64,000 nucleotides of DNA from a virus, in IMG/VR virus record IMGVR_UViG_3300027996_000014, positions 24,209 through 88,208 of that record. One strand, given 5' to 3'. The first letter of the stretch is position 1, and the number at the start of each line of letters is the position of its first letter. Shown one piece after another: positions 12,770-46,863 of the stretch. Both the position numbers and the translations under genes were made by a program. The notes under the pieces are model-generated. The model was not told the origin of the DNA. It did no database searches and was given only the letters and a program-made list of their open reading frames with translations.

Positions 12770-12795
12770 ATTAACAATCTAAAACTAAACAAAAG

Positions 12796-13453: not shown

Positions 13454-13456
13454 ATT

Positions 13457-13822: not shown

Positions 13823-13833
13823 AATAAATTAAT

Positions 13834-14033: not shown

Positions 14034-14059
14034 CACATATAAAATTAACACATTTAATT

Positions 14060-14491
14060 ATGTATACTACAGAACAAAGATTAGTTATTTATATAAAAAG
14101 AATGAGGTTAGATAAACCTAATAGAAGACCATTTGTTTCAGATCAACGTTTTTATGCAATAGGTTTATTATATTATAAATTTGGATGGACAGAATCAAAA
14201 ATAGCAAGATTACTTGATAAAAATCGTACTTCAATATGGTATGCTAAAGTAAAACCTTATGAATTTTTAAGTATGAATGATGAAAAATTTAAATTTCATT
14301 GTAAAAAAATAATGAATATTTTTCCATACACTTTTCCAAAACCATTACATTATAATCAACCTAATCATCGAAGAGTTTATCATAATTTAAATAAAGAAAG
14401 AGAAAATAAATTATTAGAATTTAAATCGTTGTATCCTAGATTACAAGATTTAAATGAAACAATGAATCTTTTAATAGATACATTTTTATAA
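14060..14491 (+). CDS. DnaA-like or homeodomain-like HTH protein (143 aa)
   Basis: I use the ATG at 14060 because the upstream start at 13985 lies inside the preceding gene and terminator. Residues about 30-65 (RFYAIGLLYYKFGWTESKIARLLDKNRTSIWYAK) form a helix-turn-helix resembling the C-terminal DNA-binding domain of DnaA (…IA…G..RDHTTV…A). The rest is basic and aromatic. It may mark the replication origin or regulate the downstream helicase genes; both are inference. Confidence 0.65.
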   Translation: MYTTEQRLVIYIKRMRLDKPNRRPFVSDQRFYAIGLLYYKFGWTESKIARLLDKNRTSIWYAKVKPYEFLSMNDEKFKFHCKKIMNIFPYTFPKPLHYNQPNHRRVYHNLNKERENKLLEFKSLYPRLQDLNETMNLLIDTFL

Positions 14492-14499
14492 CATTAACT

Positions 14500-15609
14500 A
14501 TGGATAAGAGAAAGAAAATACAAACACTTGGAACAAAAAGTATTATTGATAATAAATTTAAAGGTATATTATTTGTTGCACCAAGAGTTGGAAAGTGTAA
14601 AATTGTAATTGATGCTCTTAATACTAAATCAATGGTTTCAAGAGATATTTCAATATTAGTGCTAGCACCAAAAAAAGAAATATTTAAAGGTTGGAAAACT
14701 GATATTAAGAAATGGAATTTACATGATGGATTTGAAATTGAATACGTTTGGAGCAATAGTTTAAAAAAGATTGATAAAAAATATGATCTAATAATAGCTG
14801 ATGAAATTCACGAATATAATTTAAAAGTACTTGAATTACTTGCTTTACATAAAGCAAAAGGTTCACGTATACTTGGACTTACTGGTACGTTAGATAGTGA
14901 TTCAAAATTCCTAATACAACATGTTGTAGGTATTTCACCAATTTATACGTATACAGTTGATGAAGCAATTACAGATAAAATTGTTGCTGATTACCGTATT
15001 TATTGTGTCGAATGTGATCTTGACGATAAAGATAAATATGTTGAAGCTGGAAGTGAAGAAAAACCTTTTATGCAAACAGAAGCTGAAGCTTATAAATATT
15101 GGAATAATAAATATAACACTGCTGTATCTAATATGAGGTATTCTCAAATGAGATTTCCTATGATGCGTAGAAAAAATATTATTTATAATTCAAAAACTAA
15201 AATTAATCTTACTAAAAAAATAGTAGCTAATATTGATAGATGTTTAATATTTACAGGTTTTCAAAAAATAGCTGATTCTATTGGCGATGCATCATTTCAT
15301 TCAAAGTCTAGTAAAGATACTCTTGAACAATTAAAATTAGGAGCTATAAACAAGTGTTCTGTGGTATCAATGGTATCAATGGGAGTAACTATACCAAATT
15401 TAAAAGTAACTGTCTTTAATCAACTAAAAAGTGGTGAAAATACAGCAGTTCAACAAGCAATGAGAGCTATGAACTTAGATGGTGATAAAATAGCTACAAT
15501 AATCATTGTGTATTTAAAAAATACTCGTGATGAAATATGGATGAAATCTGCACTTAAAGGATTTAATTCTAATAAAATTACATTTTGTAAATTTAAAGAT
15601 TTGCCTTAA
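14500..15609 (+). CDS. Superfamily 2 DNA helicase/ATPase (369 aa)
   Basis: A compact SF2 helicase. Motif I is PRVGKCK (about 29-35; Cys replaces the usual Ser/Thr after the Walker Lys), motif II DEIHEY (about 101-106) and motif III GLTGT (about 127-131). Motif IV is LIFTGFQKIADS (about 248), motif V SMVSMGVTIPNLKVTVFNQ and motif VI QQAMRAMN (about 318, RecA-like lobe 2). The order matches helicases in other crAss-like replication modules. Likely roles are fork restart, recombination or primosome work. It sits 8 nt after the HTH gene. Confidence 0.88.
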   Translation: MDKRKKIQTLGTKSIIDNKFKGILFVAPRVGKCKIVIDALNTKSMVSRDISILVLAPKKEIFKGWKTDIKKWNLHDGFEIEYVWSNSLKKIDKKYDLIIADEIHEYNLKVLELLALHKAKGSRILGLTGTLDSDSKFLIQHVVGISPIYTYTVDEAITDKIVADYRIYCVECDLDDKDKYVEAGSEEKPFMQTEAEAYKYWNNKYNTAVSNMRYSQMRFPMMRRKNIIYNSKTKINLTKKIVANIDRCLIFTGFQKIADSIGDASFHSKSSKDTLEQLKLGAINKCSVVSMVSMGVTIPNLKVTVFNQLKSGENTAVQQAMRAMNLDGDKIATIIIVYLKNTRDEIWMKSALKGFNSNKITFCKFKDLP

Positions 15610-29900: not shown

Positions 29901-32251
29901 TGAGCTTTTGTATTAGCTTCTTGTACACCTAAGAATATAGCTTGTAATAGATTATTATCATGTCTTGCAATGTTTAATACTCTAGAACTTATTCCATTTA
30001 CATCGCTTACTAATTTAAATATTTCTTCGTCAGTTAAATTTTCATCGGTGTATTCTCTTACAAACTCTCCAATATATTTTTTCTGTAAAATATTTAATTT
30101 TCGTTGAAGATCTTCAGCATTTGATTTTCTAAGTCTAAATGCTGCACGAATAGATTCTGTATTAAATTCATCTTGATCTAACATTAAATGCTCATTAGGA
30201 GCCATTGAAAAATCACCTGCTTTTAACCATAAATCTACTATTCGTTGACCATATTGAACATTGTCAGCACTAATTGCAGAATCATCTAACATTCTTCTTA
30301 CTTCTTCTAATTGTCTATCTGCTATTTTTAAAACACCTTCATGTGAGGAAAGTTCACTACTTAATTTTATAAAACGATCAGCTCCTGTACGTTCATCATC
30401 ACGTATATTTTTTAAGTTTACCAATTTACGAGTAATTTTAGCTGACTCTTCTAGATTACCTATATTGTCATTTAATTCTCGTCTTAAACTAATAATTTCA
30501 CTATCAATTTTACGTTTTCTTATAGTCTCAGCATTTACTAATTGACTATTAGCAGTAGGTAATAAAAAATCTATATCATCACTTATATCTTGAGTCTTTT
30601 GATCTAAAGTAACTTCATTCCAAGTATTACCGTGTTCATCAGTAACTTGTTTAGTATCATATAACTTATTAAGAATATTAGTAACTCTATTAGAATAGAA
30701 AGCTTCAATAGGTTTAAGTTTTTCTAAACCCTGAGTTTTCATTTCTGCTTTTCTTGCTTCATCTTTTTTAATTTCTGACTCTAATTCTTTTAAAGATTGT
30801 GTTGGTTCATTAGAACCTTCTTCTTTATACTGTCCCTTTTCTATTCTCTCTTTACCTGCTTTTATAGAATTATCAATTCTAATAATCTCATCAGCAATAG
30901 TTTCATGCCCTTCTACCTTAGCAGCAGTATCACCAGTAGGAAATAGTACTTTTTCATATCCTTTTTTAATACTATCTTGAACAATAGATTCTATAAAGAA
31001 GTTAACCCAGTTACCTTTTTTGTTTAATAGTTGTAGGAATTGGTTTTGTTGTGAATTAGAATCTTGTGTTTTACCCCATCTTTCTGATTCTTCCCATTCT
31101 CCTGTTTGTTGATTAAAAACACCATCAGATATATCACCTCCAATCAAATCTTTCTTATCCCTCCCTTTCTGAAATAAATCAGATTGTACTTCTAGTATTC
31201 TACGAGTTTTAGTAGGAGTACCCCCCTTAGTAATAGGTCTACCTCTATATACAGGCTCTGGTCTTCCCTCATCATCAAAAGTTAGTTCTTCCTCTATAAG
31301 TTCTCCTTGAACTGTTTTTACAGTTCCCCCTTCAACTTCTTCATCACTTCTAAACCAACCTATACCTTTATCTGTACTAAAACCAGCATGTCCTTTGATA
31401 TTAGGAGTAATTCCTGGTGTAGCTATTTCATTTTCTGTATAGTTAGTACCTCCTGGAACTGTTAGATTAGCGTAGTATTTAGCACTTCCTGTAGGCACTT
31501 CCAGCTCATTGTCATCAGCGTAAAAATCATAAGGTTTATCGCTTTTATCTTTAGCAACATTAACCTCAACAACAAAACTATTTTCAGCTAATAAAGAAGT
31601 AATTATTTCTTCTCTATTGGTTAACTTTTTATCTAAAATAATTTGTTTTTGTGCTTTGGGTATTTGTAGTTCTGTAAGAATTTTATTTAAATCCCAACCA
31701 GCTTTTTTGCCTTTATTAAATATTTGTATAGCCTTATCAGATGATAAAATATTAGTAGATTTTAAATTATAACTAATAGGTAAATAATCAATATTATCTG
31801 CATTTGGTTTAAAATCACCATTTTCATCAAAGTATCCAGATTGTTGTTCAGACAATGATGGCGTAAATGAATCGTAATTTATTTGTGCATCATACCCCTC
31901 TACTCTAAGAATAGGGTTTTTTCTAGCAAGCTTTTGTCTAGATGCTTCATTTCCTCTTGAAAGATAATTAGGATTAAGTGTTACATCAAAAGTATTTCCG
32001 TAAATACGAGTATGTACGAATGAATGAGCAGTTCCATTCTTAGAATTATATTTAGCTAATCTATCTGCCATTGAGCTAAAATCTTCAGTCTTTGACTTAA
32101 AACCTATAGCTTTTTTAATTTCTGTAATAGTTTTAACATTAGGAATAGTATAATTATTGGCTACAAATGCCATTTTTGCTAATCTTTCTCCTGATTGAGA
32201 AACTAAAATTTTCCATTCTTTACTATTTTTGTTTGGACAATTTGCTGCCAT
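26924..32251 (-). CDS. Giant polyvalent virion/ejection-type protein (1775 aa)
   Basis: The last gene of the virion arm. Residues about 240-460 (KYYANLTVPGGTNYTENEIATPG … GHAGFSTDKGIGWFRSDEE … RRILEVQSDLFQKGRDKK … WVNFFIESIVQDSIKKGYEKVLFPTG) match the style of domains found in large phage polyvalent proteins. The middle 1000 residues are charged and coiled-coil-like. At about 1560-1600 a glycine-zipper hydrophobic segment (TGATVGTMFLPGIGTAIGAGAG) and at about 1680 another (LALAGFGLLLRAI) could insert into the host membrane. It is likely injected cargo near the RNA polymerase; the exact role is unknown. Confidence 0.72.
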   Translation of the reverse strand: MAANCPNKNSKEWKILVSQSGERLAKMAFVANNYTIPNVKTITEIKKAIGFKSKTEDFSSMADRLAKYNSKNGTAHSFVHTRIYGNTFDVTLNPNYLSRGNEASRQKLARKNPILRVEGYDAQINYDSFTPSLSEQQSGYFDENGDFKPNADNIDYLPISYNLKSTNILSSDKAIQIFNKGKKAGWDLNKILTELQIPKAQKQIILDKKLTNREEIITSLLAENSFVVEVNVAKDKSDKPYDFYADDNELEVPTGSAKYYANLTVPGGTNYTENEIATPGITPNIKGHAGFSTDKGIGWFRSDEEVEGGTVKTVQGELIEEELTFDDEGRPEPVYRGRPITKGGTPTKTRRILEVQSDLFQKGRDKKDLIGGDISDGVFNQQTGEWEESERWGKTQDSNSQQNQFLQLLNKKGNWVNFFIESIVQDSIKKGYEKVLFPTGDTAAKVEGHETIADEIIRIDNSIKAGKERIEKGQYKEEGSNEPTQSLKELESEIKKDEARKAEMKTQGLEKLKPIEAFYSNRVTNILNKLYDTKQVTDEHGNTWNEVTLDQKTQDISDDIDFLLPTANSQLVNAETIRKRKIDSEIISLRRELNDNIGNLEESAKITRKLVNLKNIRDDERTGADRFIKLSSELSSHEGVLKIADRQLEEVRRMLDDSAISADNVQYGQRIVDLWLKAGDFSMAPNEHLMLDQDEFNTESIRAAFRLRKSNAEDLQRKLNILQKKYIGEFVREYTDENLTDEEIFKLVSDVNGISSRVLNIARHDNNLLQAIFLGVQEANTKAQEEANVEWDKIDKLSKKFNQATGNSNDILKQLTKDGLETSRMTHRFAHEFYATRNNLIQKAFKELGPNGLPKKDKKDVDAFFNWVTKNTITFDVRLLFEDSHADGSNLPDKFLFKNDESAEVIKKRKAAHIEELKAHLGEKGFKFYMEQQEKKIEKYRTMRDVYYEAMQTDLSNQSQAERDEFFAEQQKEFSPYYGLAMQENPALRKKKNEGRKDSFYAPKGIREYSVQIPKKFDINNNETGWYDTNFAKIEANEDILNWYNYITETMNTLKYSLPKDVRAKLGVGVLPYIEKSLMETFSEKGVMMGVVPFWDKMKESFTTTDFATEVKADINPNSKQISKNVAVPFVEDIESKVSNLVKVRIIKYKQENGENPSREQVSKFKNEIRNSLSNERSWDIAKLMKAFTLSTLAHKHKSAIQASVEMAVDKFNQLSPGEVNSKGEILTKDGKVVEDKKSGGNLKSALDFFVNESFYGIASRKVEGASTKKVYNSKETARKKEIENLLAGEITEEDEEILKQELEKLGAVVTVSGVGDTLLKYMTLKGLGWNTFSAFSNIGFGVISNIIEGSDGRLYSMATLRKAYMLTNNSIGRNASFNTWEGINGNALKIRTMMDQWDLLQTTNKELFKGIPGKKNPLSRFGPYAMQERSEYLNYAPVMIALMLESKASDPDGKEVSLWDAYGIDGQLKEGFTAKDVKGKSFNELKLIQKIKRVIEMNHGDYNNALQIKATVFGRAISQFRTWMFEGFANRFETEKTDWALSYGMDEPFIRKGRYKSYTKGQLVATGATVGTMFLPGIGTAIGAGAGYLGGKIFGMQTEGSVINDTLFTIKQLARKALFQKTQFDDKYVGTNKFTKTDAANMRKNMTELYLMLALAGFGLLLRAISGGDDDEKKNFVSNFLMNQINRLQTDISFYTNPMQFDKISQTMLPVFQIVTDVYKIGGDVQKFYDDDIDNEDFISGPFKGRNKALVHTGEAIPGVSQAIRLYRTGDKVW

Positions 32252-32262
32252 ATTTTATTTTT

Positions 32263-35200
32263 TTAACAAGTTAATAAAAATTCTTCAAACTGTCTTTCAA
32301 ATTCCATATCTTGTACTGAAATTAAGTCGTCTGCTCCTAAATTAGTAGGAGTATTATCATTCTTTTTAATTTCGTTAAGTCTTTCTAAATTTAATGGTTT
32401 AATACTTGTTGGTTTAAAAGTAGGAGAGCTAAAATGTTCAGGATTTGAAGTATTAATTACTAATAATTTTGAAGCTCTTGATAATGCTACATAAATTAAA
32501 GAATGTTTTTCACTTCCTATTATTTTTGCATCTTGTTTTAATATTGAAGAATTTCCTCTAGGTAATGTATCAGTTTCAAAAAATACATTTTTAATAGTAC
32601 TACCTTGAGCTTTATGAATAGTTACAGCATGCCCAAAGTCAATAGCTTTACTTACTCGTAATTCATTTGCTATACCTTTATGTATTAAATAATTATATTT
32701 TTCCATTTTTTTAGTAGAAGGATTATATATGTAATCACCTCCTATTAATGTATTTTCAAAATATTTAGAAGTAGATTCTACTGCACTATAATAAGCTCCC
32801 CACATTCTATTATTAGCTAATGCTGCTTGTTTAGCAGAATGTAATTTACTCATTACATTAGATATTTCTTTATTGTTATTTTGAAAATCTTCTTCATTTA
32901 ATTCATCAAATATAAAAGAATCATTTTCAGATAATTGCAAATATTTACCACTTGCATATTTACTTACTTTTTTAATACCTAATTTTTCTAATTCTTCTAA
33001 TTTCTTAGAAGTAGCTTCTATTGAATAAGCTGATCCTATTTTTTCTGTTTTAGTAATAGTATATTTCATACTATTTGCAATATTTTGTTTTTCTATTTGC
33101 TTTGAATTATATCCAGCATATCCTACAATTATATCACCAGGTATTAAATCACCAACTCTACCTAAAGTTTTACGAATTCTTAAATTAGATGCAGTAACAC
33201 CTTTATTAGTATAACTAATAAGAGTAGATTCTTCTGGTTCTGCTTTAAATGTTTCTACTAATAAATTATTAAATTCAGTTGAAGCTAAATATTTTAATTT
33301 ATTAGAATTTTCTAATCTTGGTATTTTACCATTAGTATTTTTTCTAAGTTCAGTTAATAATTGTAATATTTTATCATCGTCAGTTCTTTTAACTTCAGTT
33401 AATAATATTTGTTCTGGTGTGCTAAATGATTTAGAAACTTGTTTTACAACAGGATTTGAAACATCTACTTCAGGGATTTGTAAAATATCTCCCATAAATA
33501 TAACTTTAACATTATAATTTTTAATAGCATCTTGAAGAATTTTATAATCTTTATTACTTAACATAGATACTTCATCTATTACCATAATATTATCACTATA
33601 TCCAAATTTATCAGTTAATTTTTTTCTTAATACTGATTCTTTTACTCCAGTTATTCTATTTTTAGATTCTCCTATTGCAGACGCTATAGTCATAGGTAAT
33701 TCTTTATTACCTGCTTTTACTGTTGCAGAAGCTAATTCAGTAGTTGCAGCATGTGTAGGAGCAAGATAAACAAATGTTGTATTTGGTAATAATTTTTGTA
33801 AATATCCTATTACTGCAGTCTTACCTGTTCCAGCAGCTCCTTGTAAAGTAATTGCTTTTTTAGAATTACTATTTTCTACAAATTCAGCTAATCTAGTTAA
33901 TGCTTTATCTTGACCTTCAGTTAATGTAAAATCAGTATCAATAGTTCTATTTTTATAAGTAAATTTATTTTCTTTAACTTCAGGATTAGTCTCATTACTT
34001 GGCTGTGTAGATGGTTGTGTAGAAATAGCACCTGTATCATTATTAAAACCAAATTCTTCTTGTAGTCTTTGTTTTAAATAAGTATACGTCTGTGGAGCTT
34101 TTTCTTTAAGTTTTGCTAAACCAGTACCAAACCCATCTTTAGGGAATACTAATGATCTACCATCAGCTTTTATTTTAGCTATGTCAGAATCAATAACGTT
34201 TTTGTTTGATTGTAAATCATTGTCAGACATAAATGCAGAAGCATTATTATTAGGTTGAAGCTTAGTAGCTATTCCAAAAGCATTTTCATTATTTCTAATT
34301 TGAGCTTGTCCACCAGTACCTTTTCTTTGTGTGTTATCTCCAAATACATATATCTTATCAGGGTTAGCTTTTAAGTCAGCACTCGTATATCTATTAACTA
34401 CTTCTATTTTAGGTGTAGAAATTAAATTTGATTTTATAACCTCATTAGCTGGTTGAGAGAATGTTTTTTTATACACATCTCTAATAGCTTGGTCAGATTT
34501 TTTCCATACTTCAGTTGAAGATAAACTTCTTGAACCAATGCCTGCAAAGTTTTTAGTTAATGTAGGAGTATTAGCTGGTACAAAACCCCCTAACAAAGAA
34601 TTTGTTTCTGGATCAAGATGTACTTCTTTAACCCATTCAAACCAAGAATCTTTAGTACCATCATATACATAAACAGTCTTGCCTTCATTAATAGCCATCT
34701 GTACCGCATACCCTGTACCTCCTTTTACTTGAGGAATTTTAGCTATTTTACCATGATTCATTACTGAATCTTTGTCAATAATTGTACCTACAGCATATAC
34801 AGCATCTGAATATTTAACTTGTGCCCAATTTCTAATCATATAATTAGATCTAACTTGGTGAGTAGGAGCAATTCTTCCCATTTGTCTGGCAGCTATAGTA
34901 ACTTTTTTCTGACCTTCATCATAATCTTTTTGAGATAGGTTAACAGGCTTGACACCCTTAAGTTCTGGACTGTCTAATTCAGTAGCTCCAGGTTCTCTAT
35001 AATGGTTATGCTTTACAACTCTATATTCTCTTCCTATCTTATCCCAAGCTGTATCTCCCCCCTTAGCCCCACCTGAATGATTAGTAAATTCTGAAGGGCT
35101 ATTAATCTCACTAACTGGTTGAGTAGATGTTACATCTGATTCTTTATTATTAGATTTAATTAAATTTAAAGATTCTTCAATTGCTGCTGGTAATAAAGAA

Positions 35201-38200
35201 TCAGGATTAATATTGAATCCCATTGTTTCTAAAAGTTCAATTAACATATCTACTAACTTAGTCCAAAAAGGTTTAGCATTTACATCAGTAATTTCATTAA
35301 GTCTTTCTTGAAATCCTTTATCTGTAAGAGCCATTGTTACAAACTCTTGTAATTTAACAGTACCATAGTATTTACTAAGGTTTTTAGAATCACTAAAATC
35401 AACAGATGGTAAATTAATGCCAATATCAAGATTATGCTTATCTAAATAATTAGCTAATGATGTTTGTTCGTCTACATTAAGAACTTTATCACTACCATCT
35501 ACATTATCTTTTCTCCATTTCCAAGTCCAATATTTTCTAGTCCAAGAATCTATTCCATCTTTTCCTTCTTTTTTTATTAATGCATCTATATATTGTTTTT
35601 GTAAATTTTTTAAATTTTCAATAATAGTTATTTGAGCTTTTGTAAGTTGATCTAAATTTCCTTCTTCATACTTATAAATTAAATCAGAAGTATAACCATG
35701 AATTGTTTCATGTGCAAATGCTGATGCAATAATACTATTATTACTATTATCTAAAGCTACTCCTAATCCTGATTTTTTATTTAAATTTAAAGTAATTTTA
35801 CCATTAACATATTGAGCAACTCCCGCATTAACTTCATTTATAAAATTTAATTCTAACTTATCATTACCTTCAATTTGATTAAGCATATCTAATAATTCTC
35901 TATTGTATGAATTAACATTATCATTAGTGATTAATTTATTCATTAATGATTTAAATGCTTTATTACCTGTTTCTTTTGTAGTAATTTTAATTTTGTTAAC
36001 AGCTTTATCATTTTCATTATTAATTATATTAGGAGTAAATTTTTCTACTGGAGTAACTTTTATTGGTGATTTTTTATGAGCAGGATGTACTATTGAATTA
36101 TTATTATCAAAAGATTGAGAATTATATTGAACAAATCCATATTCACCTTTTAACATAGGTATCATTTCATATTTATTTGTTTCATCATTATATTCATAAA
36201 TTGCAAACCCTGCTTTTGATCTTGATAATTTTATACTTAAAAATTTAATAGGACTAACTGTATCAAATTCTTCATAAGTATACATTGATTTCTTAGTATC
36301 TTTAATTGTAAATGAACTAGGTATATCTTCTTTACTATCTATTTCATCTATTTTAATTGTACGAAGTAAATCTGGATTATTTTGAAAAAACTGTTTAGTA
36401 AACCCAGATGGTATACTATAAGAAGGTTCACCATTTTCATCAAGATGTCCATTAAATGTATTAGTAAAACTAAGAGAAGATTCACTTAAAGATTTACCAA
36501 AGTTCATATTTTGCAAATATACAACAGGAATATATTTAAGATATTGTTTAGCTCCTTGATTACCTCCTTCAAGATAAGCAGCTAATATTAACTCTTGAGC
36601 TAACATTCTCATAGTATAATCAATTCCATTAAATACACCTATTTTACTTTCTGATTTTAATAAGTAAAGAAATCCATCATAAATATTACTTTCATCATAA
36701 TTCTCTGCAGTAGCTGCATCAAAATTAATTCTAGAAATTGTACCATCAATTTTTGGATCAGGTTCTAATTTATTTAAAAAATTATTTTCTCTATACCATT
36801 GTTCACCTGATAATTGATTTAATATTGTAGCAAGACTTAAATTAGTTCCTGGAACATCTACAAATAACCTATTTCTTTCAATATTTGGATCATAGGTCAT
36901 TAAATTTGTATTAGTATTATTAAACATAAAAGAACGAATTCCTTTAAATATTTTATTAAATATTTCCATTTGTTTAACTGAAGATAAATCACTGCCTCTT
37001 GGTATATGATTTTGTATTTCTTGATTTACTAAACTTACACCTAATTGTTGATAAGGAAAATATTTCTCATAAATAGTATTCGCAAACATTGCTCCATATT
37101 TTGCAGCAAAACCATTAATAGTAGTAGGTGTAACTAAACCATTTTTGTCATACTCTCCCATTAATTTATCAGCATTATAAATGCTATGGTTACTAAGATT
37201 ATTTACTTGTTTTACTTTAAAATTATTTTCAGTAAGTGAAGTAGGTAAACCTTTTGCTTCTGTATTAACAGCTGATTGAATTTTTTTAATTTCTTTACCT
37301 ATTTCAGTAAGATTTCTAAATTTTTCTACTAATAATAATTGTTTAATATTAAAATCACTAGTAGTATTTTTAGAAATTACTAATTTACTTTTTAAGTTTT
37401 CTAGTAATTCTTCTCCTGATTGATTTTCTAAATGAGATAAATCATGCTCATTTACAAGTCTATTAGATTTATCATATTTAAGTAATAAATTATCATAAAT
37501 TACACTTTCAACATCTTGTACAAAAGGAGCTAATGAAGATCTACTATTTGTTAATTCTTCAATATATTCCCATATAATAGGTTGAGTAATTAATCCTGAA
37601 ATCTCAGTTTCTTCAAACCCTAATGAAACCATTGCCCGAATAGCATCAAAAGTTTCATTATTAATATTTAATTTATCTAAAATTTGTGCTTTTTCATTAT
37701 CTACTGCAGTTGATTGTAAAGATTTAACAATATTAGACTTAAGTTTTAATGAACTTTTTTCATCTTTTGTTAATTCTCTTTTAGCAATTTTTGCATTTTG
37801 AATAATTTGCTGAGAACGTAAAGTATATTTATTTGATAAATCTCCTTTTGAAGTAATATTCCCAAAAGTAGCAATGTTATTATTATAAGTTAATATAGAT
37901 GATTGTGATGGCTTAGCTCCTTTTTTGAATAAAAATTTAGTATCTTCTTCTGAAAGATTTAAAATAGTTAATTCTTTACCTTGTGTAATTGTTACAAAAG
38001 AGGAATCTAATGAGAATGCACCTACTCCATTTTTACCTGAAGTTGCGTTAATAAATTTATTTCTTTGGTATGCATCAGAAAGAATTGTAACTCTTTCTTC
38101 TAATTCACCATTATCTTTTCTTATTTTATTAACTTTGTCTGCAATGTTTTTGAATTCACCAAATGAATCAATATCCATATTCATAGCAATAATCTCTGGA

Positions 38201-41200
38201 TTATTACTAGTCATAATTTTAATATGAATATCTATAATAGCATTTTGTCTATGTGCTACGTAAGAACGCTTTAACATTTTTAATTCAGCAACAGCATCAT
38301 TGTATTCTTTTTGAACAGTATTATTTAAATTTTTAAATAAATCAGCTATAAAGTCACTTACTTCTTTCTCATATATATCACTATTTTCAAAGCTTTCTAA
38401 TAAATCTCTTTCCTCTTTATTAAACCCTAAATCTTTTTTAATATCTAAAATAGTTTCTACTACTTCTTTTATTTTCCCGTCAATTACTTTTTTACTTTTT
38501 AAGAAAGTAGTACTAAGTTTTCCATTTGTATAATGAGTATTGTACATGTACGTGTACAATTTATCAACATCAAAATCAGATCCCATTTGAGCAACCCAAT
38601 CTCTTGGCGTTAATAGTAAATCTCCAGATGCTTCTGGTAAAAATCCTACTACTTCAATTGCAGCCATAGAACTCTTTGCTTGATTAGGAATACGGAAACC
38701 AAATAAAGTTAATACTTTTTGAGGTATTTTTTTAAAATCTAATTTACCATCTGTTATAAAATCATTTATATTTAAAATTTGTCCTTTCTCGTCACGTATT
38801 TTAAACGGCAGCATAATTTGAGCAGGTAACATTTTACCTGTAAGCTTACCTTTTGCATCATATTCTGGACGCAAAGGCTGTAATCCTTTAGCAGCATCAT
38901 AATTAGAAGAAAATACTACACCTGATTTAGCTAATTCTGCATCAGCTTCTGCCCCTTCTTTTCTTCTAAATCCTTCTTCAGACCCAAGTACTCCTGATTG
39001 ACCAGGGAATTTTTGTTTAATTACTTTTTTACTAACAATTGAAGTAAGAATGCTTTCAAATTTAGTACTATAAGGAGATGACCATAATGGTATTTTAAAA
39101 TCTGTACCCTCTTCGTTTAATTCTAGTGAATCTAACATATTTCTAGGATATCCCTGCCTAGTCTTTACTTCTTCAATTAATATTTCTTGTAATTTTTCAA
39201 TAGGAATTGATTTACGTGAAACTGGATTACCATCTTCATCATATGTAAGTAGTCCTAGCTTCTCAGCAAGCTTCTCTTGTGCATTACCAAAAAGTTCATG
39301 ATAATAGTTATCATATTCTTTTTTAAGTTGCTCTCCTGTAACTCCTGGCTCTATTTGTAAATCTAAAATATCTGAAAATAAAAGTTTACGAGCTTGTGTT
39401 CCTATATTAACAGAACTTTTACTACGGTCATAAGGTACATCTTGCTGTATTCTAAAGTTAGTTCTTGGTATAAATAATGCGTTGTCTGTTGTAATTTCAA
39501 GGTTATCTAATACGTTCCCATTATTATCAAATACATCTATAGAGCTTTCAATAGCACCTACTTTAGTTGCTGTACCAAAACTAGCTCTAACTGTAATGTT
39601 ACTTTGGCCATTACCCGCATTCTTACTTTCTTTAGTTTCAAATTTTTCTAAAGCTATTCTAATTTTATCAATTTCAAGTTCAGTTGTTAATTGTGGAATT
39701 AATGGAAAACTAGAAGATTTAATATATAATCTTTTATCAATATTTTGTTCAACTGATAAAATATTACCAACATAAACTGGTTTCATCGGCTGAAGTACCA
39801 TTCCTAACTCTTCATGCGATAATTTATTACTTTCTGTAATTCCATTCTTATTTTGAGAATTTATTTTATCTGTAAAATCATTATAATTTTTTTCAGATAA
39901 TCTACCTAGTTGCATAAGTACATATAAATGTTCTTTCCATGTAGTATATTCTTGAGCATCAGCTCCTTCAATATTAGAATAATTCTTCTTAAAATCTTTC
40001 ATTATTCTAGAGAAGTACTTCAACCTAACTGAATCGTCTACATTACTACTATTTAATTTTTTATCATTAAAAAATACTTGATAATATTTATTATTACTAC
40101 TATCAGCTAATTCTAACCCTGGTGCAATATCACCTGCTAATCTTTTACCTAGATTAATAAATGTATCTTCTAAATTTAATTTAAGTATTTGATTACTGTC
40201 CATTTCTGCTACTAATGCAGCTTCTTCAGTAAGTCCTTCTTTTAATAAAGAATCAACTCTATTTTCTTTTGATGTAAATTTAGCATATTGAGCAGGATCA
40301 CCAATAAACAATTTATGTGCTTCAGCGTTTGCTATTAAACTATTAAATACATAATCCATTGCTGCCCACTTAACAGGATTAGTTCCTTTAGCAACATTTT
40401 TCATATATTCTTTGTCCAAGAAACTATTTTTCTCATCTTTATTATTAAGACCAATATTTAATTTATCCCAGTCTTCTAATTTTTTATTAGTTAACTTTTC
40501 AATTATATCATTTAAATGTTCTTTAATGTCACTTTCAACTTCACCTTTATTAATATTATCAGGATTATCTGCTAAAATATCTAATAAATTTCTAGTTTCT
40601 CCATTAAATTCAATTTCTAAAAAGTTTAATGATTCTAATAAATAAAAATAATTTGGTTTGTAACCTTTCACATTAGTAGCTTGATTGTTACTAGTTATTC
40701 TAGCGATCTCAGGCTTTACTAAAGAGTCATATAATGTATCTATATTCTTTTTTGATATTTCTCCTCCTTCTAAATTAAGTTCATGAGATAATGCTTGTAT
40801 AGTAAGCATTGTAGTTTTATCTGACATAGTAGGATAGAAGAAAGAGACTTTTCTTCTTACACTATTATTAAGAATAGTTTTAGAATTATTAAAAAATAAT
40901 CCAAGTTTAGTTACTTCGTGTTCTGCTGCAGTTAAGTTATTTAATTTACGATTATCTTTACTATCAGTATATTGTTTCTTTAATGCTTCTAATGATAAGT
41001 AACCTACACTAAAGTGTTCTCTTGCTAAATCTTTAGATTCTTCATCAGTAATATCATCTAACCATAAACTATATTTAGAAAAAGATATTTTTCTAAGATC
41101 AGCAATTATATCAGCATTTACAAATGTTCCATCTTCATTGTAACTAGTGATATCACGCATTCTATTTATTAATGAATTATTATTACCATAAGAATAAATA

Positions 41201-44200
41201 GTTTTACCACCTGCTTGAAAAGAATTACTAGTAATACTTTTATTATTTGTAGCTTCAATTTTAGCTAATTCTTTAATTACAGTATCTGTAATTATTTTAA
41301 AATTATCTAATAAAATATCTTTATCATTTTTTACACTATCAACTGTTCCTTTTAATTGTTTAGCTATTACATTTACTAATCCATTACTATGTGTAAATAA
41401 TTCTATCCATGTTTTACTTTTACCTTTAGCTTTAAACTTTCCATTTTTTAAATCTTTATATGTTTCATCAGAAACAACAATTCCAAAGTTACCTAACCAT
41501 ATTGCTAAATCATTGAATGAAATATCATTAGGATTATTTTTCCATTCTGTAGCTTGATTAATCAAATTGTTTGCTACTTCTCTATTGACTATATATTCTT
41601 TATCATTATTTACAGTAACTAAATTACTTTGTGTAAATGTACCTTTGAGATTAGAATTCCATATTGTTCTTAATTTATTTTCAATCGATGAAGCATTAGA
41701 TGACCAATTTTGAAGAGTATAGTTTCCTTTTCCATCTCTACTCCACATTACAAATGACATATTTATATTATGCTTAGTCATATCTGAAGTAAATTCATTT
41801 TTGATTTTTTGTGAAGCATTTTCTAGTTTATCAATAACTGATTTTAATGATAAATTCTTTTTAGCATGAACTTTTAATATTTTAATAAGTAATTTAAAAT
41901 CAGAAGGTTTATTTGCTAATATTCTATGTAATTCATTATATAACTCATCAAAATTAATCATTTCTGGTAAACCTATTAAGTTCACTACTGGACCTTTTTC
42001 GTTAACTGCTTGAATAGCACTAAAAAACTTTTTAAATTCTGCAGAAGCATTATTTTTAGAATCAATTGTATATTTCCATTCATCAGAATGAATAACATCT
42101 CCTAATCCTGATTCATCTTCTTGTTCAGTTGTAGGTAATTCTTGAACTATACCTGTATTTAATAATGATAAGTTTTGGTTAACTAATCTACTAACTTTTG
42201 AAAATTGTTTTACTACAGCTTCAATTTTAGCAGCAGTATTTACTAATCCATTATCTTTATAAAACTGAGCTGTTTTACTTAAAGCATCTAATTCTTTTTT
42301 TAATATTTGCTTAGTGTTAATTTTACCTTTTTTATTTTTCTTTTTTGCTTCAATTCCAGCATTAATAATTACTGATGAAAGATATGTAATTGTAGATTGT
42401 TGAGTTCTAGGATCAAGACCAATAATAAGATTTTTATTAATAGCTCTTTTTTGAGCTTTTATTTGAGCATCACGATCTTCTTGAGTTTGTCCTTCAGCTA
42501 ATTGATCTTTATTTAAATAATTAGGAACTAAGTCATCTGATTCATTTTCATCTTCATCATTTAAGTCATTTAAAGCATCTAAATCATCATCAGTCATTTC
42601 TGCTGAATCAGTTGTAGTACCATCAATAATTATATCTTTATTATTTATTGTAGTACTTTTAATATCTCTTAATAATTCAAGAGCACCATTAACTAATTTT
42701 TTACCTTTTTCAGTTATATCTGGAGAAGTAAGTTGTTCTTCTAATTCAGAAATAGTGCTATTTTTTGCTAATAACATACTTGAAACTTCTTCACTTATTT
42801 CATTTTCTACATCAATTTCTGTTTCAACTTCACTAGTTTGTTTTGCTGGTTTTGTTTGCTGTAATGGGTCTAAAGATTCTTTCTTTTCAAGAGGAGTGTT
42901 TGGTTTATTAGCAATCTTACTTACTTTCTTACCTTTTGCAAATGCATCATCAAATGTAATTGAAGGTTGAATAGTATATCCCCATTTAGGTTCTGCTTCA
43001 GTTCCTATATTAACAGATATAAGTTTAGTTTGATAAGATTTTTTAAGATATTCAGAATATGTTTCAGATACTACTTCATTATCATCGTTGATAAGAACAG
43101 CTACTCCAGCACTTGCTAGTGTTAAAGTCTCTTTATCAGCATTAACTAGCATTTTTTTTAATATCTCTTCTAATTGTAATAAAGATTTTCTATTTGATTC
43201 AGGTTGATTTTTGTTAAAATTAGGAGAAATTACGGCTGCACTTTTACCTTTCGGAGCAGAAGTCATATCAACTCCTGGTCTACCAAACTCAATACCACTA
43301 CCAGTAACCGTTAACAAAGGAATACTACTGTTACCCTCAGCATAATTACTAAGCATTGAATCTAATCCATCTTCACCTTTAGTATTTACTATATGTATAA
43401 ATTGAGAAAGATATTTTCTAATTCCTTTTGTTTCAGTAATATCTACACCTAAGTTACTTTCTAATATTTTTTTTACAATAGGATTAGTAGTATCTTTTGT
43501 CATATATATCTCAACTGCTTTCATTACAGAATCAATAGCTTCTTTACCCAACATAGTTCTTTCTAAAGGAATAGCCAGTCTTTCTTTGGGCCCTATTTGA
43601 ACAATTATATATAATCTTCCATCTTTAGGTTTATTATTGTTAATAATATTATCCTTATCTACTTTATTAGTACCAGCTTGAAAATTATACGCACCATCTT
43701 TACCAATAGCTAATTTTAAATTAGGATCAGGCATTGCTTCGGCAACACTCATTGATTTTCCAGTATGGTTTCTAATTAATCTACCAAAACTTTTATATGT
43801 AATTTGAGTATTAACTTTTCCTTTTTCTATTACTTTATTTCTAATTGCTTCTAAGGCAGCTTTATCTTCAGCTATACCTTCTTGAGTATTGTCAATATTT
43901 TCACTTCTTATCCAAGCTGTATCATGAACATACGCAACATATTCTCCACCTTTAGTCTTAATAACTATTGGAACTTCAGCTCTATATTCAGGAGAGTTCT
44001 TATAAGTATCAATAGTATATTTTGCTATTATTTCTTTTAATCTATCTTGCCATAAAACTTTTTCTCTAGTTGAAGAAGTAGGGTCAAATACTTCACCTTC
44101 ATAATCTTCTTCAACTTCTAATACTATTTTAGTACCTTTTGTAAATTTGTTAGGATCTAATAAATGTACATTATCAACATCATCAGTAAATTCTTCTCTA

Positions 44201-46863
44201 TTTACAATACCAGCTTCTTCACTTTGATCAAATTCTCTTGAAGTAAAAGCAAATTTATTACTACCAGTATCACTTTTTTCATAATTATATACAAGATTTC
44301 CATTTTCATCTATATCAATAGATAATTCAGTATCACCAGTAGAAACATCATTAATAGCATCACCTACTTCTTTTTCTACATCACTTTTTTCAGTTTTATT
44401 ATTAGGAATTTCTTTTGAAAGATTAGAAGTAGTACTATCAAATTCATCAGAAGTAGGATCTCCTGGAGTAAATGCACTCAATCCATCATTATTCCCTATT
44501 GTTTCACCTCTCTCTAATTTTCCAGCTTGATCTATAATTTTATCTTTTAATCTAGCTATTGCTTTTTGAGAAATTTTTGAAACATCTTGATTTTCTATTT
44601 TTTTTTTAAGAGCTTCTAATTTTTCAGTTGAATCAGCATTATTAATTTTATTAGCAAATTTAGTTTCAATTGCATCTTTTTTTTCTTGTATTTTATTTTT
44701 TTGATTTTCAGTTTTTAATTGCTTAATTTTTGCATAAGCTTTTTTAATAAATGCTTCATCTTTAGTTTCAGCAATCATATTGTTTATTTCAGATATAGAA
44801 GTACTTTCTTTTAATTTCTCTGTATACTCTTTAACAATTGCTTTCTTTTCATTTTCTGCTTTAACAGTAGCTTGATACTTTTTACTAGTTATTTTTTCAA
44901 ATTCAGTAGATATTTTATTTAATGCAGCATCAGTAGCTTCTTTAATAATTTCATTATTAAGACTTTCTTTATATTCTTTAGTAGCTTGTAATTCTTTTAA
45001 AAATTTATCGTAAGTAGCTTTATTTTCAGTTGATTCATAAGGATTAACTTCAATATTAGATGAATCAAAAGTTAATGGAGCATCATCATAAAAAGTCTCA
45101 GTAGATTTTTCTCCATTTTTTGTTATTAATACATCTCTTTTTTTACTAATTCTATATTTATTAGCTAAGTTCTTTCTTACTTCAGATAATTTATTATCAT
45201 TTTCAAACTTTTCTGCTTCATATATAGCAGCTTGTCTACTAGTTCTAATATTATTAGCACGATTAAAGAAAACTTCATTTACATTTTCAAGTTCTTCATA
45301 ATTATTATAAACATCTTCTAATTGTTTAAGATCTTTTAATGCTTTTTTAGCATTATCAATATGCTCTTGACCTACTTCATCAACATTTTTACGAGATTCT
45401 TCTTTATATAGATCTTCTAAGATTGAACTAATTCCTGTAGAAAATGCTGTGAATGCTTGATTTTCAAACATTTCGTCTTTTAATGTATCATATGCAGCTT
45501 GATCTCCATTAATAATAGCTTCTTTTAATTTTTCTTCAAAAATTATTCTATCTTTTATAGACTTCATTGCATCAGTAATATTAACACCTTCTTTTGTTAA
45601 TGTTTCAATTGCTTTTTGTTGTTTATTATATTTATTTTTTTGATCAGTAGCGTAACTAATTTTATTACCATCAGCATCTGTAGTAGAACCTACACCACCT
45701 TTAATATTTTGTAATATTTTTGTACCTCCAGTCTGAGCAATACCACCTAATGCACCTAAAAAGGCTGCTTCAAAGCCTTCCATTGTACCCATATCATTCA
45801 TAGCATCATTGAAAGAATAATCTTCATCTTTACCTGCAGCTAAACCTGCTTTAGATGCAACATGATTAATTAATTCTTCCATTGCTTCTTGACCACCTTC
45901 AAGTGCTAATTCTTTAAATGTTTTTCCTAGAGTAGGATTTTGTATGAGTCTATTGCTAAAACTTCTTGGTCTAAGAAAAGCTTTTGCAGAAGTAAGATTT
46001 AATAATATATTAATTCTATTAAGATTCATTGTAGTACTAGCAGCAGTTGCAGCTTTAGATCTAGCTTCTTTTTCACTAATACCAGTTGTATTTATTGCAT
46101 TTTCATAAGTAGTATTATATACATCAGTAGCTTCCATTACAGCTTCTGCTTGATTAAGCATTGTAGCAGTCATTAATGTTTCAGCTCCACCTATAACACC
46201 TTTAGCTACTTTTGCGCTACTAATAGCTTTTACTAATTTTTGAGCTCTAGCAGCTTTAAGTGCCCACGGTACTACTTTACCAACACCTGCACCTAACGCT
46301 AAAAATGAACCAATTGAAGTAACTAATCCTTCACCTCTTGACATCCACCATGCCCAATCTTGCATTTGCATTGATGCGTTTGGATTTTCTTCATAAATAG
46401 GCATTGCTTCTTGAGACCATTCTTGTACACTATTAGCCCAATTAACAATCTCATTTTGAGCAGCATGTTCTGCATCCCAATAACCTGGAATATCTAACAT
46501 TGAAGCTGCACCAGACATAATCTGAGGAATAATATTAGTACCTACTCTTTTAATAGCATTTCCTGCTTGTTCCCAATTATATTGGTTATTTGCACGTATA
46601 TCATTTAATTCACTAAATGTATACTGTCCTCCTCTTAAAGTACGATCATTTACATAATCTTCATACGGATCAAATGTAGATGTTAGAACAGGACTGTAAT
46701 TACTTGTGAGAGTATTTTGTTCAACATCTGTAAATGAAGGTTTTACATCTGAAGTATAGTATTTATTTTCAGCTATTCTTTTATCAGAAACTTTTTTATT
46801 ATTTTTTGCAAAAGATGATAATTCTTCATCATTATTAACAGTACTAATTCTTTTTTTACTCAT
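32263..46863 (-). CDS. Giant multidomain virion RNA-polymerase/helicase protein (4866 aa)
   Basis: Order: hydrophobic helices at about 170-380; long charged coiled coil at about 400-850; RNA polymerase core with FGFRIPNQAKSSMAAIEV, then GSDFDVDKLY (DFDVDK at 2763-2768). The last two resemble the beta-prime RAPTLHR and NADFDGD elements of the double-psi barrel that holds catalytic Mg. Further on are a metallopeptidase-like HETIH (3718-3722), a SLOG-like HSGGAKGGDTAWD domain (about 3925) and an IYVFGDNTQRKGTGGQAQIR domain (about 4160-4270). An SF1 helicase ends it: GAAGTGKT about 4340, VIDEVSM about 4428, VTIHKAQGST about 4790. crAss-like phages inject a virion RNA polymerase for early transcription; this protein is its likely equivalent, enlarged by fusion. 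Confidence 0.85.
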   Translation of the reverse strand: MSKKRISTVNNDEELSSFAKNNKKVSDKRIAENKYYTSDVKPSFTDVEQNTLTSNYSPVLTSTFDPYEDYVNDRTLRGGQYTFSELNDIRANNQYNWEQAGNAIKRVGTNIIPQIMSGAASMLDIPGYWDAEHAAQNEIVNWANSVQEWSQEAMPIYEENPNASMQMQDWAWWMSRGEGLVTSIGSFLALGAGVGKVVPWALKAARAQKLVKAISSAKVAKGVIGGAETLMTATMLNQAEAVMEATDVYNTTYENAINTTGISEKEARSKAATAASTTMNLNRINILLNLTSAKAFLRPRSFSNRLIQNPTLGKTFKELALEGGQEAMEELINHVASKAGLAAGKDEDYSFNDAMNDMGTMEGFEAAFLGALGGIAQTGGTKILQNIKGGVGSTTDADGNKISYATDQKNKYNKQQKAIETLTKEGVNITDAMKSIKDRIIFEEKLKEAIINGDQAAYDTLKDEMFENQAFTAFSTGISSILEDLYKEESRKNVDEVGQEHIDNAKKALKDLKQLEDVYNNYEELENVNEVFFNRANNIRTSRQAAIYEAEKFENDNKLSEVRKNLANKYRISKKRDVLITKNGEKSTETFYDDAPLTFDSSNIEVNPYESTENKATYDKFLKELQATKEYKESLNNEIIKEATDAALNKISTEFEKITSKKYQATVKAENEKKAIVKEYTEKLKESTSISEINNMIAETKDEAFIKKAYAKIKQLKTENQKNKIQEKKDAIETKFANKINNADSTEKLEALKKKIENQDVSKISQKAIARLKDKIIDQAGKLERGETIGNNDGLSAFTPGDPTSDEFDSTTSNLSKEIPNNKTEKSDVEKEVGDAINDVSTGDTELSIDIDENGNLVYNYEKSDTGSNKFAFTSREFDQSEEAGIVNREEFTDDVDNVHLLDPNKFTKGTKIVLEVEEDYEGEVFDPTSSTREKVLWQDRLKEIIAKYTIDTYKNSPEYRAEVPIVIKTKGGEYVAYVHDTAWIRSENIDNTQEGIAEDKAALEAIRNKVIEKGKVNTQITYKSFGRLIRNHTGKSMSVAEAMPDPNLKLAIGKDGAYNFQAGTNKVDKDNIINNNKPKDGRLYIIVQIGPKERLAIPLERTMLGKEAIDSVMKAVEIYMTKDTTNPIVKKILESNLGVDITETKGIRKYLSQFIHIVNTKGEDGLDSMLSNYAEGNSSIPLLTVTGSGIEFGRPGVDMTSAPKGKSAAVISPNFNKNQPESNRKSLLQLEEILKKMLVNADKETLTLASAGVAVLINDDNEVVSETYSEYLKKSYQTKLISVNIGTEAEPKWGYTIQPSITFDDAFAKGKKVSKIANKPNTPLEKKESLDPLQQTKPAKQTSEVETEIDVENEISEEVSSMLLAKNSTISELEEQLTSPDITEKGKKLVNGALELLRDIKSTTINNKDIIIDGTTTDSAEMTDDDLDALNDLNDEDENESDDLVPNYLNKDQLAEGQTQEDRDAQIKAQKRAINKNLIIGLDPRTQQSTITYLSSVIINAGIEAKKKNKKGKINTKQILKKELDALSKTAQFYKDNGLVNTAAKIEAVVKQFSKVSRLVNQNLSLLNTGIVQELPTTEQEDESGLGDVIHSDEWKYTIDSKNNASAEFKKFFSAIQAVNEKGPVVNLIGLPEMINFDELYNELHRILANKPSDFKLLIKILKVHAKKNLSLKSVIDKLENASQKIKNEFTSDMTKHNINMSFVMWSRDGKGNYTLQNWSSNASSIENKLRTIWNSNLKGTFTQSNLVTVNNDKEYIVNREVANNLINQATEWKNNPNDISFNDLAIWLGNFGIVVSDETYKDLKNGKFKAKGKSKTWIELFTHSNGLVNVIAKQLKGTVDSVKNDKDILLDNFKIITDTVIKELAKIEATNNKSITSNSFQAGGKTIYSYGNNNSLINRMRDITSYNEDGTFVNADIIADLRKISFSKYSLWLDDITDEESKDLAREHFSVGYLSLEALKKQYTDSKDNRKLNNLTAAEHEVTKLGLFFNNSKTILNNSVRRKVSFFYPTMSDKTTMLTIQALSHELNLEGGEISKKNIDTLYDSLVKPEIARITSNNQATNVKGYKPNYFYLLESLNFLEIEFNGETRNLLDILADNPDNINKGEVESDIKEHLNDIIEKLTNKKLEDWDKLNIGLNNKDEKNSFLDKEYMKNVAKGTNPVKWAAMDYVFNSLIANAEAHKLFIGDPAQYAKFTSKENRVDSLLKEGLTEEAALVAEMDSNQILKLNLEDTFINLGKRLAGDIAPGLELADSSNNKYYQVFFNDKKLNSSNVDDSVRLKYFSRIMKDFKKNYSNIEGADAQEYTTWKEHLYVLMQLGRLSEKNYNDFTDKINSQNKNGITESNKLSHEELGMVLQPMKPVYVGNILSVEQNIDKRLYIKSSSFPLIPQLTTELEIDKIRIALEKFETKESKNAGNGQSNITVRASFGTATKVGAIESSIDVFDNNGNVLDNLEITTDNALFIPRTNFRIQQDVPYDRSKSSVNIGTQARKLLFSDILDLQIEPGVTGEQLKKEYDNYYHELFGNAQEKLAEKLGLLTYDEDGNPVSRKSIPIEKLQEILIEEVKTRQGYPRNMLDSLELNEEGTDFKIPLWSSPYSTKFESILTSIVSKKVIKQKFPGQSGVLGSEEGFRRKEGAEADAELAKSGVVFSSNYDAAKGLQPLRPEYDAKGKLTGKMLPAQIMLPFKIRDEKGQILNINDFITDGKLDFKKIPQKVLTLFGFRIPNQAKSSMAAIEVVGFLPEASGDLLLTPRDWVAQMGSDFDVDKLYTYMYNTHYTNGKLSTTFLKSKKVIDGKIKEVVETILDIKKDLGFNKEERDLLESFENSDIYEKEVSDFIADLFKNLNNTVQKEYNDAVAELKMLKRSYVAHRQNAIIDIHIKIMTSNNPEIIAMNMDIDSFGEFKNIADKVNKIRKDNGELEERVTILSDAYQRNKFINATSGKNGVGAFSLDSSFVTITQGKELTILNLSEEDTKFLFKKGAKPSQSSILTYNNNIATFGNITSKGDLSNKYTLRSQQIIQNAKIAKRELTKDEKSSLKLKSNIVKSLQSTAVDNEKAQILDKLNINNETFDAIRAMVSLGFEETEISGLITQPIIWEYIEELTNSRSSLAPFVQDVESVIYDNLLLKYDKSNRLVNEHDLSHLENQSGEELLENLKSKLVISKNTTSDFNIKQLLLVEKFRNLTEIGKEIKKIQSAVNTEAKGLPTSLTENNFKVKQVNNLSNHSIYNADKLMGEYDKNGLVTPTTINGFAAKYGAMFANTIYEKYFPYQQLGVSLVNQEIQNHIPRGSDLSSVKQMEIFNKIFKGIRSFMFNNTNTNLMTYDPNIERNRLFVDVPGTNLSLATILNQLSGEQWYRENNFLNKLEPDPKIDGTISRINFDAATAENYDESNIYDGFLYLLKSESKIGVFNGIDYTMRMLAQELILAAYLEGGNQGAKQYLKYIPVVYLQNMNFGKSLSESSLSFTNTFNGHLDENGEPSYSIPSGFTKQFFQNNPDLLRTIKIDEIDSKEDIPSSFTIKDTKKSMYTYEEFDTVSPIKFLSIKLSRSKAGFAIYEYNDETNKYEMIPMLKGEYGFVQYNSQSFDNNNSIVHPAHKKSPIKVTPVEKFTPNIINNENDKAVNKIKITTKETGNKAFKSLMNKLITNDNVNSYNRELLDMLNQIEGNDKLELNFINEVNAGVAQYVNGKITLNLNKKSGLGVALDNSNNSIIASAFAHETIHGYTSDLIYKYEEGNLDQLTKAQITIIENLKNLQKQYIDALIKKEGKDGIDSWTRKYWTWKWRKDNVDGSDKVLNVDEQTSLANYLDKHNLDIGINLPSVDFSDSKNLSKYYGTVKLQEFVTMALTDKGFQERLNEITDVNAKPFWTKLVDMLIELLETMGFNINPDSLLPAAIEESLNLIKSNNKESDVTSTQPVSEINSPSEFTNHSGGAKGGDTAWDKIGREYRVVKHNHYREPGATELDSPELKGVKPVNLSQKDYDEGQKKVTIAARQMGRIAPTHQVRSNYMIRNWAQVKYSDAVYAVGTIIDKDSVMNHGKIAKIPQVKGGTGYAVQMAINEGKTVYVYDGTKDSWFEWVKEVHLDPETNSLLGGFVPANTPTLTKNFAGIGSRSLSSTEVWKKSDQAIRDVYKKTFSQPANEVIKSNLISTPKIEVVNRYTSADLKANPDKIYVFGDNTQRKGTGGQAQIRNNENAFGIATKLQPNNNASAFMSDNDLQSNKNVIDSDIAKIKADGRSLVFPKDGFGTGLAKLKEKAPQTYTYLKQRLQEEFGFNNDTGAISTQPSTQPSNETNPEVKENKFTYKNRTIDTDFTLTEGQDKALTRLAEFVENSNSKKAITLQGAAGTGKTAVIGYLQKLLPNTTFVYLAPTHAATTELASATVKAGNKELPMTIASAIGESKNRITGVKESVLRKKLTDKFGYSDNIMVIDEVSMLSNKDYKILQDAIKNYNVKVIFMGDILQIPEVDVSNPVVKQVSKSFSTPEQILLTEVKRTDDDKILQLLTELRKNTNGKIPRLENSNKLKYLASTEFNNLLVETFKAEPEESTLISYTNKGVTASNLRIRKTLGRVGDLIPGDIIVGYAGYNSKQIEKQNIANSMKYTITKTEKIGSAYSIEATSKKLEELEKLGIKKVSKYASGKYLQLSENDSFIFDELNEEDFQNNNKEISNVMSKLHSAKQAALANNRMWGAYYSAVESTSKYFENTLIGGDYIYNPSTKKMEKYNYLIHKGIANELRVSKAIDFGHAVTIHKAQGSTIKNVFFETDTLPRGNSSILKQDAKIIGSEKHSLIYVALSRASKLLVINTSNPEHFSSPTFKPTSIKPLNLERLNEIKKNDNTPTNLGADDLISVQDMEFERQFEEFLLTC

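Follow-up and report, generated by a model that had tools for sequence, protein, structure and literature searches.

A giant crAss-like virion RNA polymerase chain with an apparently exchangeable set of tail domains

The locus and its polymerase core

The stretch of DNA analysed here (the window, 64,000 nucleotides) comprises bases 24209-88208 of an 88,208-base IMG/VR virus record of metagenomic origin. Judged by its terminase, gene order and cargo block, the record is crAss-like. The terminase is closest to that of phi14:2 (33% over 93%) and then to those of other crAss-like phages; terminase, portal and major capsid protein all match PHROG families; and the large minus-strand genes follow the order of crAss001, with a tail-tip protein, cargo proteins and RNA polymerase proteins. 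The plus strand of the record carries the DNA polymerase and nucleases. Within the cargo block lies a frame of 4,866 codons that begins with ATG and has no internal stops (Table 1). A preliminary description of this DNA had presented it as a single uninterrupted 4866-aa fusion gene, which it is, and we add that the gene is on the minus strand. Among its neighbors, the 1,552-aa protein matches PHROG 28748 (virion structural protein, E 4e-93) and is probably the muzzle, a name we give it from this match and its place in the gene order. Family matches were sought for the 1,802-aa protein and none were obtained. The 1,775-aa neighbor contains GHAGFSTDKGIGWFRSDE...RRILEVQSDLFQKGR, which may resemble large polyvalent-protein-associated domains.

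Table 1. Coordinates of the giant chain, its parts and the adjoining cargo-block genes in the window
Feature	Position	Strand	Basis
1,775-aa cargo-block protein, downstream, at the place of phi14:2 gp65	26924..32251	-	gene order
Virion RNA polymerase cargo chain, 4,866 aa	32263..46863	-	open frame
SF1 (RecD/Dda-like) helicase, aa 4297-4840, motifs intact	32344..33975	-	AAA_30, UvrD_C_2
DUF7831 module, aa 4155-4280, apparently mobile 378-bp unit	34024..34401	-	Pfam PF25176
SLOG (DprA-like) domain, aa 3918-4130	34474..35112	-	PHROG 768
Zincin-like domain, aa 3620-3900	35164..36006	-	alignments A4/A5, AlphaFold2, profile match
Glu3840, predicted third metal ligand, second conserved helix	35344..35346	-	alignment
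HETIH, aa 3718-3722, in predicted helix	35698..35712	-	AlphaFold2
RNA polymerase core, aa 2275-2949	38017..40041	-	aligned with phi14:2 gp66 (PDB 6vr4)
DFDVDK catalytic motif	38560..38577	-	aligned to DFDIDK of 6vr4
N-terminal segment, aa 64-375	45739..46674	-	tblastn, crAssphage KP06_gp45
893-aa cargo-block protein, positioned like the second cargo protein	46911..49592	-	gene order
1,802-aa cargo-block protein, at the place of cargo protein C1	49599..55007	-	gene order only
Probable muzzle (tail tip) protein, 1,552 aa	55010..59668	-	PHROG 28748, crAss001 gene order

The metagenomic source raises the possibility that so long a frame is an assembly chimera or an annotation artefact. We regard this as extremely improbable. 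Two related loci on independent contigs, L051 and L052 (L-numbers denote related loci from other phage contigs, of which about 100 were compared), are collinear with the window chain from polymerase through zincin to helicase, which argues that the frame is no chimera; the frame itself is uninterrupted, and many chains of 4,000-6,385 aa occur among the relatives. With relatives reaching 6,385 aa, size and fusion alone are ordinary, and lengths of up to about 6,000 aa have been published for crAss-like virion RNA polymerases (vRNAPs) (PMC10136315).

All the motifs named in the preliminary description are present, each within about 15 residues of where it had been placed: DFDVDK at residue 2763, HETIH at 3718, SGGAKGGDTAWD at 3930 and VFGDNTQRKGTGG at 4173, followed by the helicase motifs GAAGTGKT (Walker A, 4342), IDEVSML (4429), HKAQG (4750) and VALSRA (4792). 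In a protein of such composition HExxH would be expected 0.03 times by chance and DxDxD 1.2 times, so the latter motif carries little weight by itself without an alignment. The alignment is to the virion polymerase gp66 of phi14:2 (PDB 6vr4, phmmer E 6e-22); it covers residues 948-1563 of 6vr4 within one frame of the window chain and takes in a conserved RIPNQ...LPEA...GD stretch that precedes the catalytic motif. DFDxD is kept across a 9-row polymerase alignment, the core matches PHROG 16227 (E 2e-119), and the nearest named chains are those of Fpv1 and Fpv3 (29-30% identity, E about 1e-81). These matches confirm the earlier assignment, and by homology the core is a crAss-like vRNAP, probably of the two-barrel type. 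Polymerases of this kind are virion components that transcribe early genes (PMC7886860, PMC10172136, PMC10136315). Packaging and early transcription have been shown for the vRNAP of phi14:2 and the vRNAP has been detected in crAss001 virions (PMC7886860, PMC10172136), and by analogy with these two phages the window chain would likewise be packaged, injected and active. Its N-terminal segment resembles the N-terminus of KP06_gp45, an RNAP-associated cargo protein of crAssphage (tblastn E 2e-14). With a gp45-like N-terminus and an Fpv-like polymerase and zincin, the window chain joins parts that are encoded separately elsewhere.

A search for relatives with a single-sequence polymerase segment returned no loci; a scan with a polymerase profile (profile A3) returned 80. 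In one of the related loci, L013, an in-frame TGA at nt 6479 (on a contig shared with L007) breaks the vRNAP frame 58 codons before DFDVDT, which may mean that the codon is recoded or read through, or that this polymerase is naturally split. In another, L017, there is a weak GNAT acetyltransferase-like match at aa 1579-1653, between polymerase-profile pieces (L069 is the same chain, 6,385 aa), suggesting that domains may be inserted within the polymerase too.

The zincin-like domain and the helicase

Alignment and profile comparison assign HETIH to a conserved domain, with HExxH...E, that is found in ejected phage proteins. An alignment of 8 divergent sequences, phi14:2 gp65 and crAssphage gp45 among them, has just four invariant residues: the H, E and H of HExxH and a Glu further downstream. 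Because those 8 rows were centered on HExxH, it is the Glu, for which they were not selected, that is informative. In 28 rows picked for HExxH, the Glu position is occupied by E 24 times and by D 4 times. In the AlphaFold2 model (pLDDT 87) HETIH and the Glu lie in two different helices, as in the zincins of polyvalent proteins (PMC5512222), and the zincin profile matches solved podovirus ejection proteins (9sfn_G, E 2.6e-8; 8vb2_A, E 5e-4). The proposed HExxH domain is thus borne out, and a predicted metal site is likely. Predicting the structure of this segment, a check of the kind suggested at the outset, gave the two-helix arrangement, but Foldseek found no significant match to the fold in the PDB. 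A scan for zincin relatives with profile A1 yielded none that was confirmed; the zincin profile itself matches the same chain in 43 of the 80 polymerase-profile loci.

The C-terminal domain is, as first described, a complete SF1 helicase, with Walker A and B and the C-terminal motifs intact. It matches AAA_30 (E 2e-19), UvrD_C_2 (E 6e-6, slightly under the Pfam cut-off in HMMER) and a PHROG of Dda-like helicases (E 3e-64). The record has no AAA_30 helicase other than the fused copy. A second one above cut-off occurs in 1 of 11 records with a fused helicase and a free-standing one in 13 of 21 others (Fisher p 0.008, for records that are related and partly incomplete), which suggests that the phage's own helicase moved onto the polymerase, where it seems to stand in for a free-standing gene. 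In the helicase tree the copies of the window, L051, L052, L077 and L086 form one clade, and a single origin of all fused helicases is neither shown nor rejected (p-AU 0.42).

Exchangeable domains of the tail

Using local HMM searches and Pfam to locate domains in the related chains, we find zincin-like, SLOG, DUF7831 and SF1 helicase domains in at least 8 different orders among the about 100 related loci, with SLOG and the helicase present in several of the 80 polymerase-profile loci. The window reads RNAP-zincin-SLOG-DUF7831-helicase. Its relatives read RNAP-zincin-NADAR-SLOG-2OG-helicase (L051), the same without SLOG (L052), RNAP-zincin-DUF7831-helicase (L013), DUF7831-helicase-RNAP-zincin (L024), RNAP-SLOG-helicase (L046), RNAP-helicase (L047), RNAP-helicase-zincin (L077 and L086), RNAP-SLOG-helicase-zincin (L079 and L080), SLOG-RNAP-zincin (L065) and RNAP-cpYpsA-DUF7831 (L020). 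The orthologous chains of L051 and L052 are 91% identical from polymerase to zincin and 95% in the helicase, and differ in content between zincin and helicase; the NADAR and 2OG-Fe(II)-like matches in L051 are below Pfam cut-offs. Because the same kinds of domain recur in other combinations and orders, the polymerase chain seems to serve as a carrier on which tools for the first minutes of infection can be exchanged. By these comparisons the tail domains are exchangeable, a property that the preliminary description had not noticed.

The SLOG domain that had been suspected from its motif matches PHROG 768 (DprA-like, E 2.5e-7) and has the glycine-rich SGGAxGxD loop; the Pfam search of the window protein gave no SLOG match, and neither did a scan for relatives with the domain. 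SLOG is also found in the gut crAss chain cr113_1 gp38, and in the vRNAPs of the N4-type phages Pylas (Klebsiella) and PT15-A5, whose polymerase is unrelated (T7-like). Two giant cargo-block chains, NC_055901.1 gp79 (5,801 aa) and NC_055896.1 gp38 (4,328 aa), are annotated only as DprA-like recombination mediators, names that stem from a small C-terminal SLOG; gp38 of NC_055896.1 is clearly a vRNAP.

The domain next to SLOG is DUF7831 (E 6e-35, 120 bits against a Pfam cut-off of 27). A scan for this domain only found 15 loci from about 12 phages, always inside a giant chain, with the polymerase catalytic motif in the same chain in 11 of the 12 phages and in an adjoining gene in L027. In 12 chains the domain is 58-93% identical to the window copy, and the polymerases are about 20-30% identical to that of the window; for L013 the values are 93% and 30%. 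Over the 78 pairs of 13 phages, mean identity is 69% for DUF7831 and 25% for the polymerase catalytic region, and the two are uncorrelated (rho 0.11, p 0.35). DNA identity is 75-93% within the 378 bp and 24-51% beyond them, except in L020-L023, where the flanks are related. The similarity stops abruptly at the module edges, and the window's module has counterparts of 83-93% DNA identity in other phages.

Could DUF7831 nevertheless be an old, very slowly changing domain that is inherited with the polymerase and does not move? The domain is under strong purifying selection, with 42 invariant columns in 13 sequences, and in pairs that include the window its fourfold sites are only modestly more conserved than in shuffles (p 0.04-0.06; in the alignment with L013, 30 of 42 are identical). 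Against this stand the fourfold sites of L020-L023 and L015-L018, which are well conserved (p 0.0005 and 0.0015), and the lack of any correlation with polymerase identity. The domain's position in the chain also varies, even between L015 and L018, whose polymerases are 51% identical and where it precedes the polymerase in one and follows it in the other, and at the corresponding place in L051 and L052 it is absent. The DUF7831 tree is poorly resolved, and the groupings implied by its closest copies are rejected by the polymerase data (p-AU 0.006 and 0.011). We therefore think it improbable that the domain is immobile; the fourfold sites together with purifying selection suggest that DUF7831 moves between chains even though it is under strong constraint.

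The predicted DUF7831 fold (pLDDT 86) has no significant Foldseek match in the PDB. Matching predicted viral structures are free-standing DUF7831 proteins of phages and giant viruses, as well as parts of giant proteins of the gut crAss phages cr130_1, cr131_1 and cr272_1. A TARG1/ALC1-like macrodomain, prompted by GxGGQAxIR and PKDGFGTGLA, was rejected: no macrodomain is among the 50 best PDB matches, the best being dual-specificity phosphatases, which are non-significant. The sequence patterns we used found no DUF7831 in bacterial genomes, the genes next to it in two phages (Roseobacter phage DSS3P8, Caulobacter phage Seuss) offered no hint of function, and a literature search that took in few subscription journals found nothing on the domain. 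In L020 and L023 the stretch NEHFGNPFSEAGYG...YKNWL directly before DUF7831 may resemble DUF4326; Pfam makes no call on it. In a 635-kb phage (LR745206, L028), genes for SLOG, DUF7831 and NUDIX are clustered in about 7 kb (8357-14896), which weakly backs an action on host signals.

A probably injected chain with passengers, and its known relatives

The architecture, the homologies and the exchange of modules are evident at the level of sequence. We consider it probable that the chain is a virion-packaged, injected vRNAP built as polyvalent cargo with exchangeable early-acting domains. Such a chain would be packaged, threaded through the tail and refolded in the host, where the polymerase would start on the early genes immediately. 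The helicase, whose gene apparently once stood alone, could open or clear the DNA as it enters, for the benefit of transcription or of the first round of replication. SLOG and DUF7831, like the NADAR and 2OG-Fe(II)-like domains of relatives, might target the host's nucleotide signals or nucleic acids ahead of all phage gene expression. Passengers on the polymerase would be delivered along with it, and whole in-frame module exchange would alter the first-wave equipment and leave the polymerase untouched. Viral SLOG and NADAR domains have been predicted to counter NAD/ADP-ribose-based immunity (PMC9503650), and we infer a possible counter-immunity role for SLOG and DUF7831 from that prediction and from the company these domains keep. 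More tentatively, the tail may be a mobile, exchangeable bay of nucleotide-signal domains (SLOG, NADAR, DUF7831 and others) that is injected ready-made and blunts such immunity during the first minutes, with DUF7831 a new family of this kind jumping in frame.

Other readings give the individual domains different tasks. SLOG and helicase might form a DprA/Dda-like unit for recombination or replication priming on the entering DNA, unrelated to immunity: PHROG classes the SLOG domain as DprA-like, and between the window and L051 SLOG (59% identity) and the fused helicase (56%) are closer than the polymerase (38%). But the NADAR and cpYpsA neighbors in relatives fit the handling of nucleotide signals, and the unrelated T7-like vRNAPs of N4-type phages carry SLOG too, so that this alternative seems to us rather doubtful. 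The preliminary description had also proposed that transcription and unwinding are coupled in one molecule. Helicase and polymerase would then work as one unit, the former opening the double-stranded template for the latter. Physical coupling is possible, the helicase motifs are intact, the fusion recurs in about a dozen sampled chains and a free-standing helicase seems to have given way to the fused copy. Yet the helicase lies on either side of the polymerase or zincin, before the polymerase in L024, directly after it in L047 and L077, and beyond zincin and SLOG in the window, which counts against one fixed two-part machine; most relatives have no helicase, and in phi14:2 the polymerase core is in a separate, helicase-free gene. 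We keep such coupling as a tentative possibility.

The same description had raised the idea that the HETIH domain cuts the chain or helps refold it, which is unsupported by what we find. In its polyprotein form, the idea has the zincin free polymerase, SLOG/DUF7831 and helicase as separate proteins, by cleavage ahead of packaging, inside the head or once the chain has entered the host. HExxH and the downstream Glu are conserved in the divergent crAss-like sequences, the profile matches podovirus ejection proteins, phi14:2 and crAssphage devote a gene of its own to each of the corresponding functions, and DdrB of P1 is processed (PMC5512222). However, 6 of 53 zincin homologues (L045, L050, L053, L058, L085 and L106) have EExxH, with Glu in place of the first metal-binding His; the domain's position varies along the chains and its fold has no PDB match; and in phi14:2 and crAssphage it is in a gene apart from the polymerase core, so that gp66 and the zincin-bearing gp65 of phi14:2 are already encoded apart. 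The same cutting idea was published in 2017 for N4-like vRNAPs, in a paper that also notes that the vRNAP of N4 itself enters the virion without processing (PMC5512222). Self-cleavage, though possible, is unsupported by these comparisons, and we consider a polyprotein unlikely.

If crAss-like polymerase chains do carry exchangeable counter-defense and DNA-handling domains, this bears on how phages survive the minutes before any of their genes is expressed, in one of the commonest phage groups. It would help explain the great length and variability of crAss-like polymerases, and the domain lists of their chains would predict host defenses, with each domain testable singly. Already known or present in databases are the polymerase and its zincin neighbor, the fusion of SLOG to a gut crAss phage chain, and the idea of polyvalent proteins. 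The combinatorial bay and the mobility of DUF7831 appear to be undescribed in the literature searched, which took in few subscription journals: the paper on polyvalent proteins (PMC5512222) mentions neither crAss-like phages nor SLOG, and that on NAD-based immunity (PMC9503650) does not mention crAss phages.

Among known systems, phi14:2 gp66 shares with the window chain the polymerase core, DFDxDK, the gene block and an adjacent zincin-type domain with cargo proteins, but it is a protein of 2,180 aa with its own gene, has its zincin in gp65 and lacks SLOG, DUF7831 and helicase. The giant Fipvunavirus virion proteins Fpv1 gp33 and Fpv3 gp32 (4,401 and 4,287 aa), from Flavobacterium psychrophilum phages treated as crAss-related (PMC7886860, PMC10172136), are collinear with the window chain, at 26-30% identity, over a stretch that starts near aa 1600 and takes in RNAP and zincin, but stop after the zincin and lack the three further domains. 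cr113_1 gp38 (Suoliviridae), annotated as DprA-like and so misnamed for its SLOG domain, is a giant vRNAP chain with a C-terminal SLOG like that of the window; unlike the window frame it has many standard stop codons, presumably recoded, and no helicase or DUF7831 was detected in it. The polyvalent proteins of Iyer et al. 2017 (PMC5512222) are very large virion-borne multi-domain chains with a zincin hub and unrelated enzymes, and the window chain likewise combines several unrelated enzymatic domains and a zincin. The vRNAPs of N4-type phages (Schitoviridae), such as Klebsiella phage Pylas gp65, are giant injected polymerases that carry a zincin-like domain and, in Pylas, SLOG within the chain, although their T7-like core is unrelated to the two-barrel core. 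If our reading is right, the two groups are parallel cases, in which unrelated polymerases deliver the same sort of passengers.
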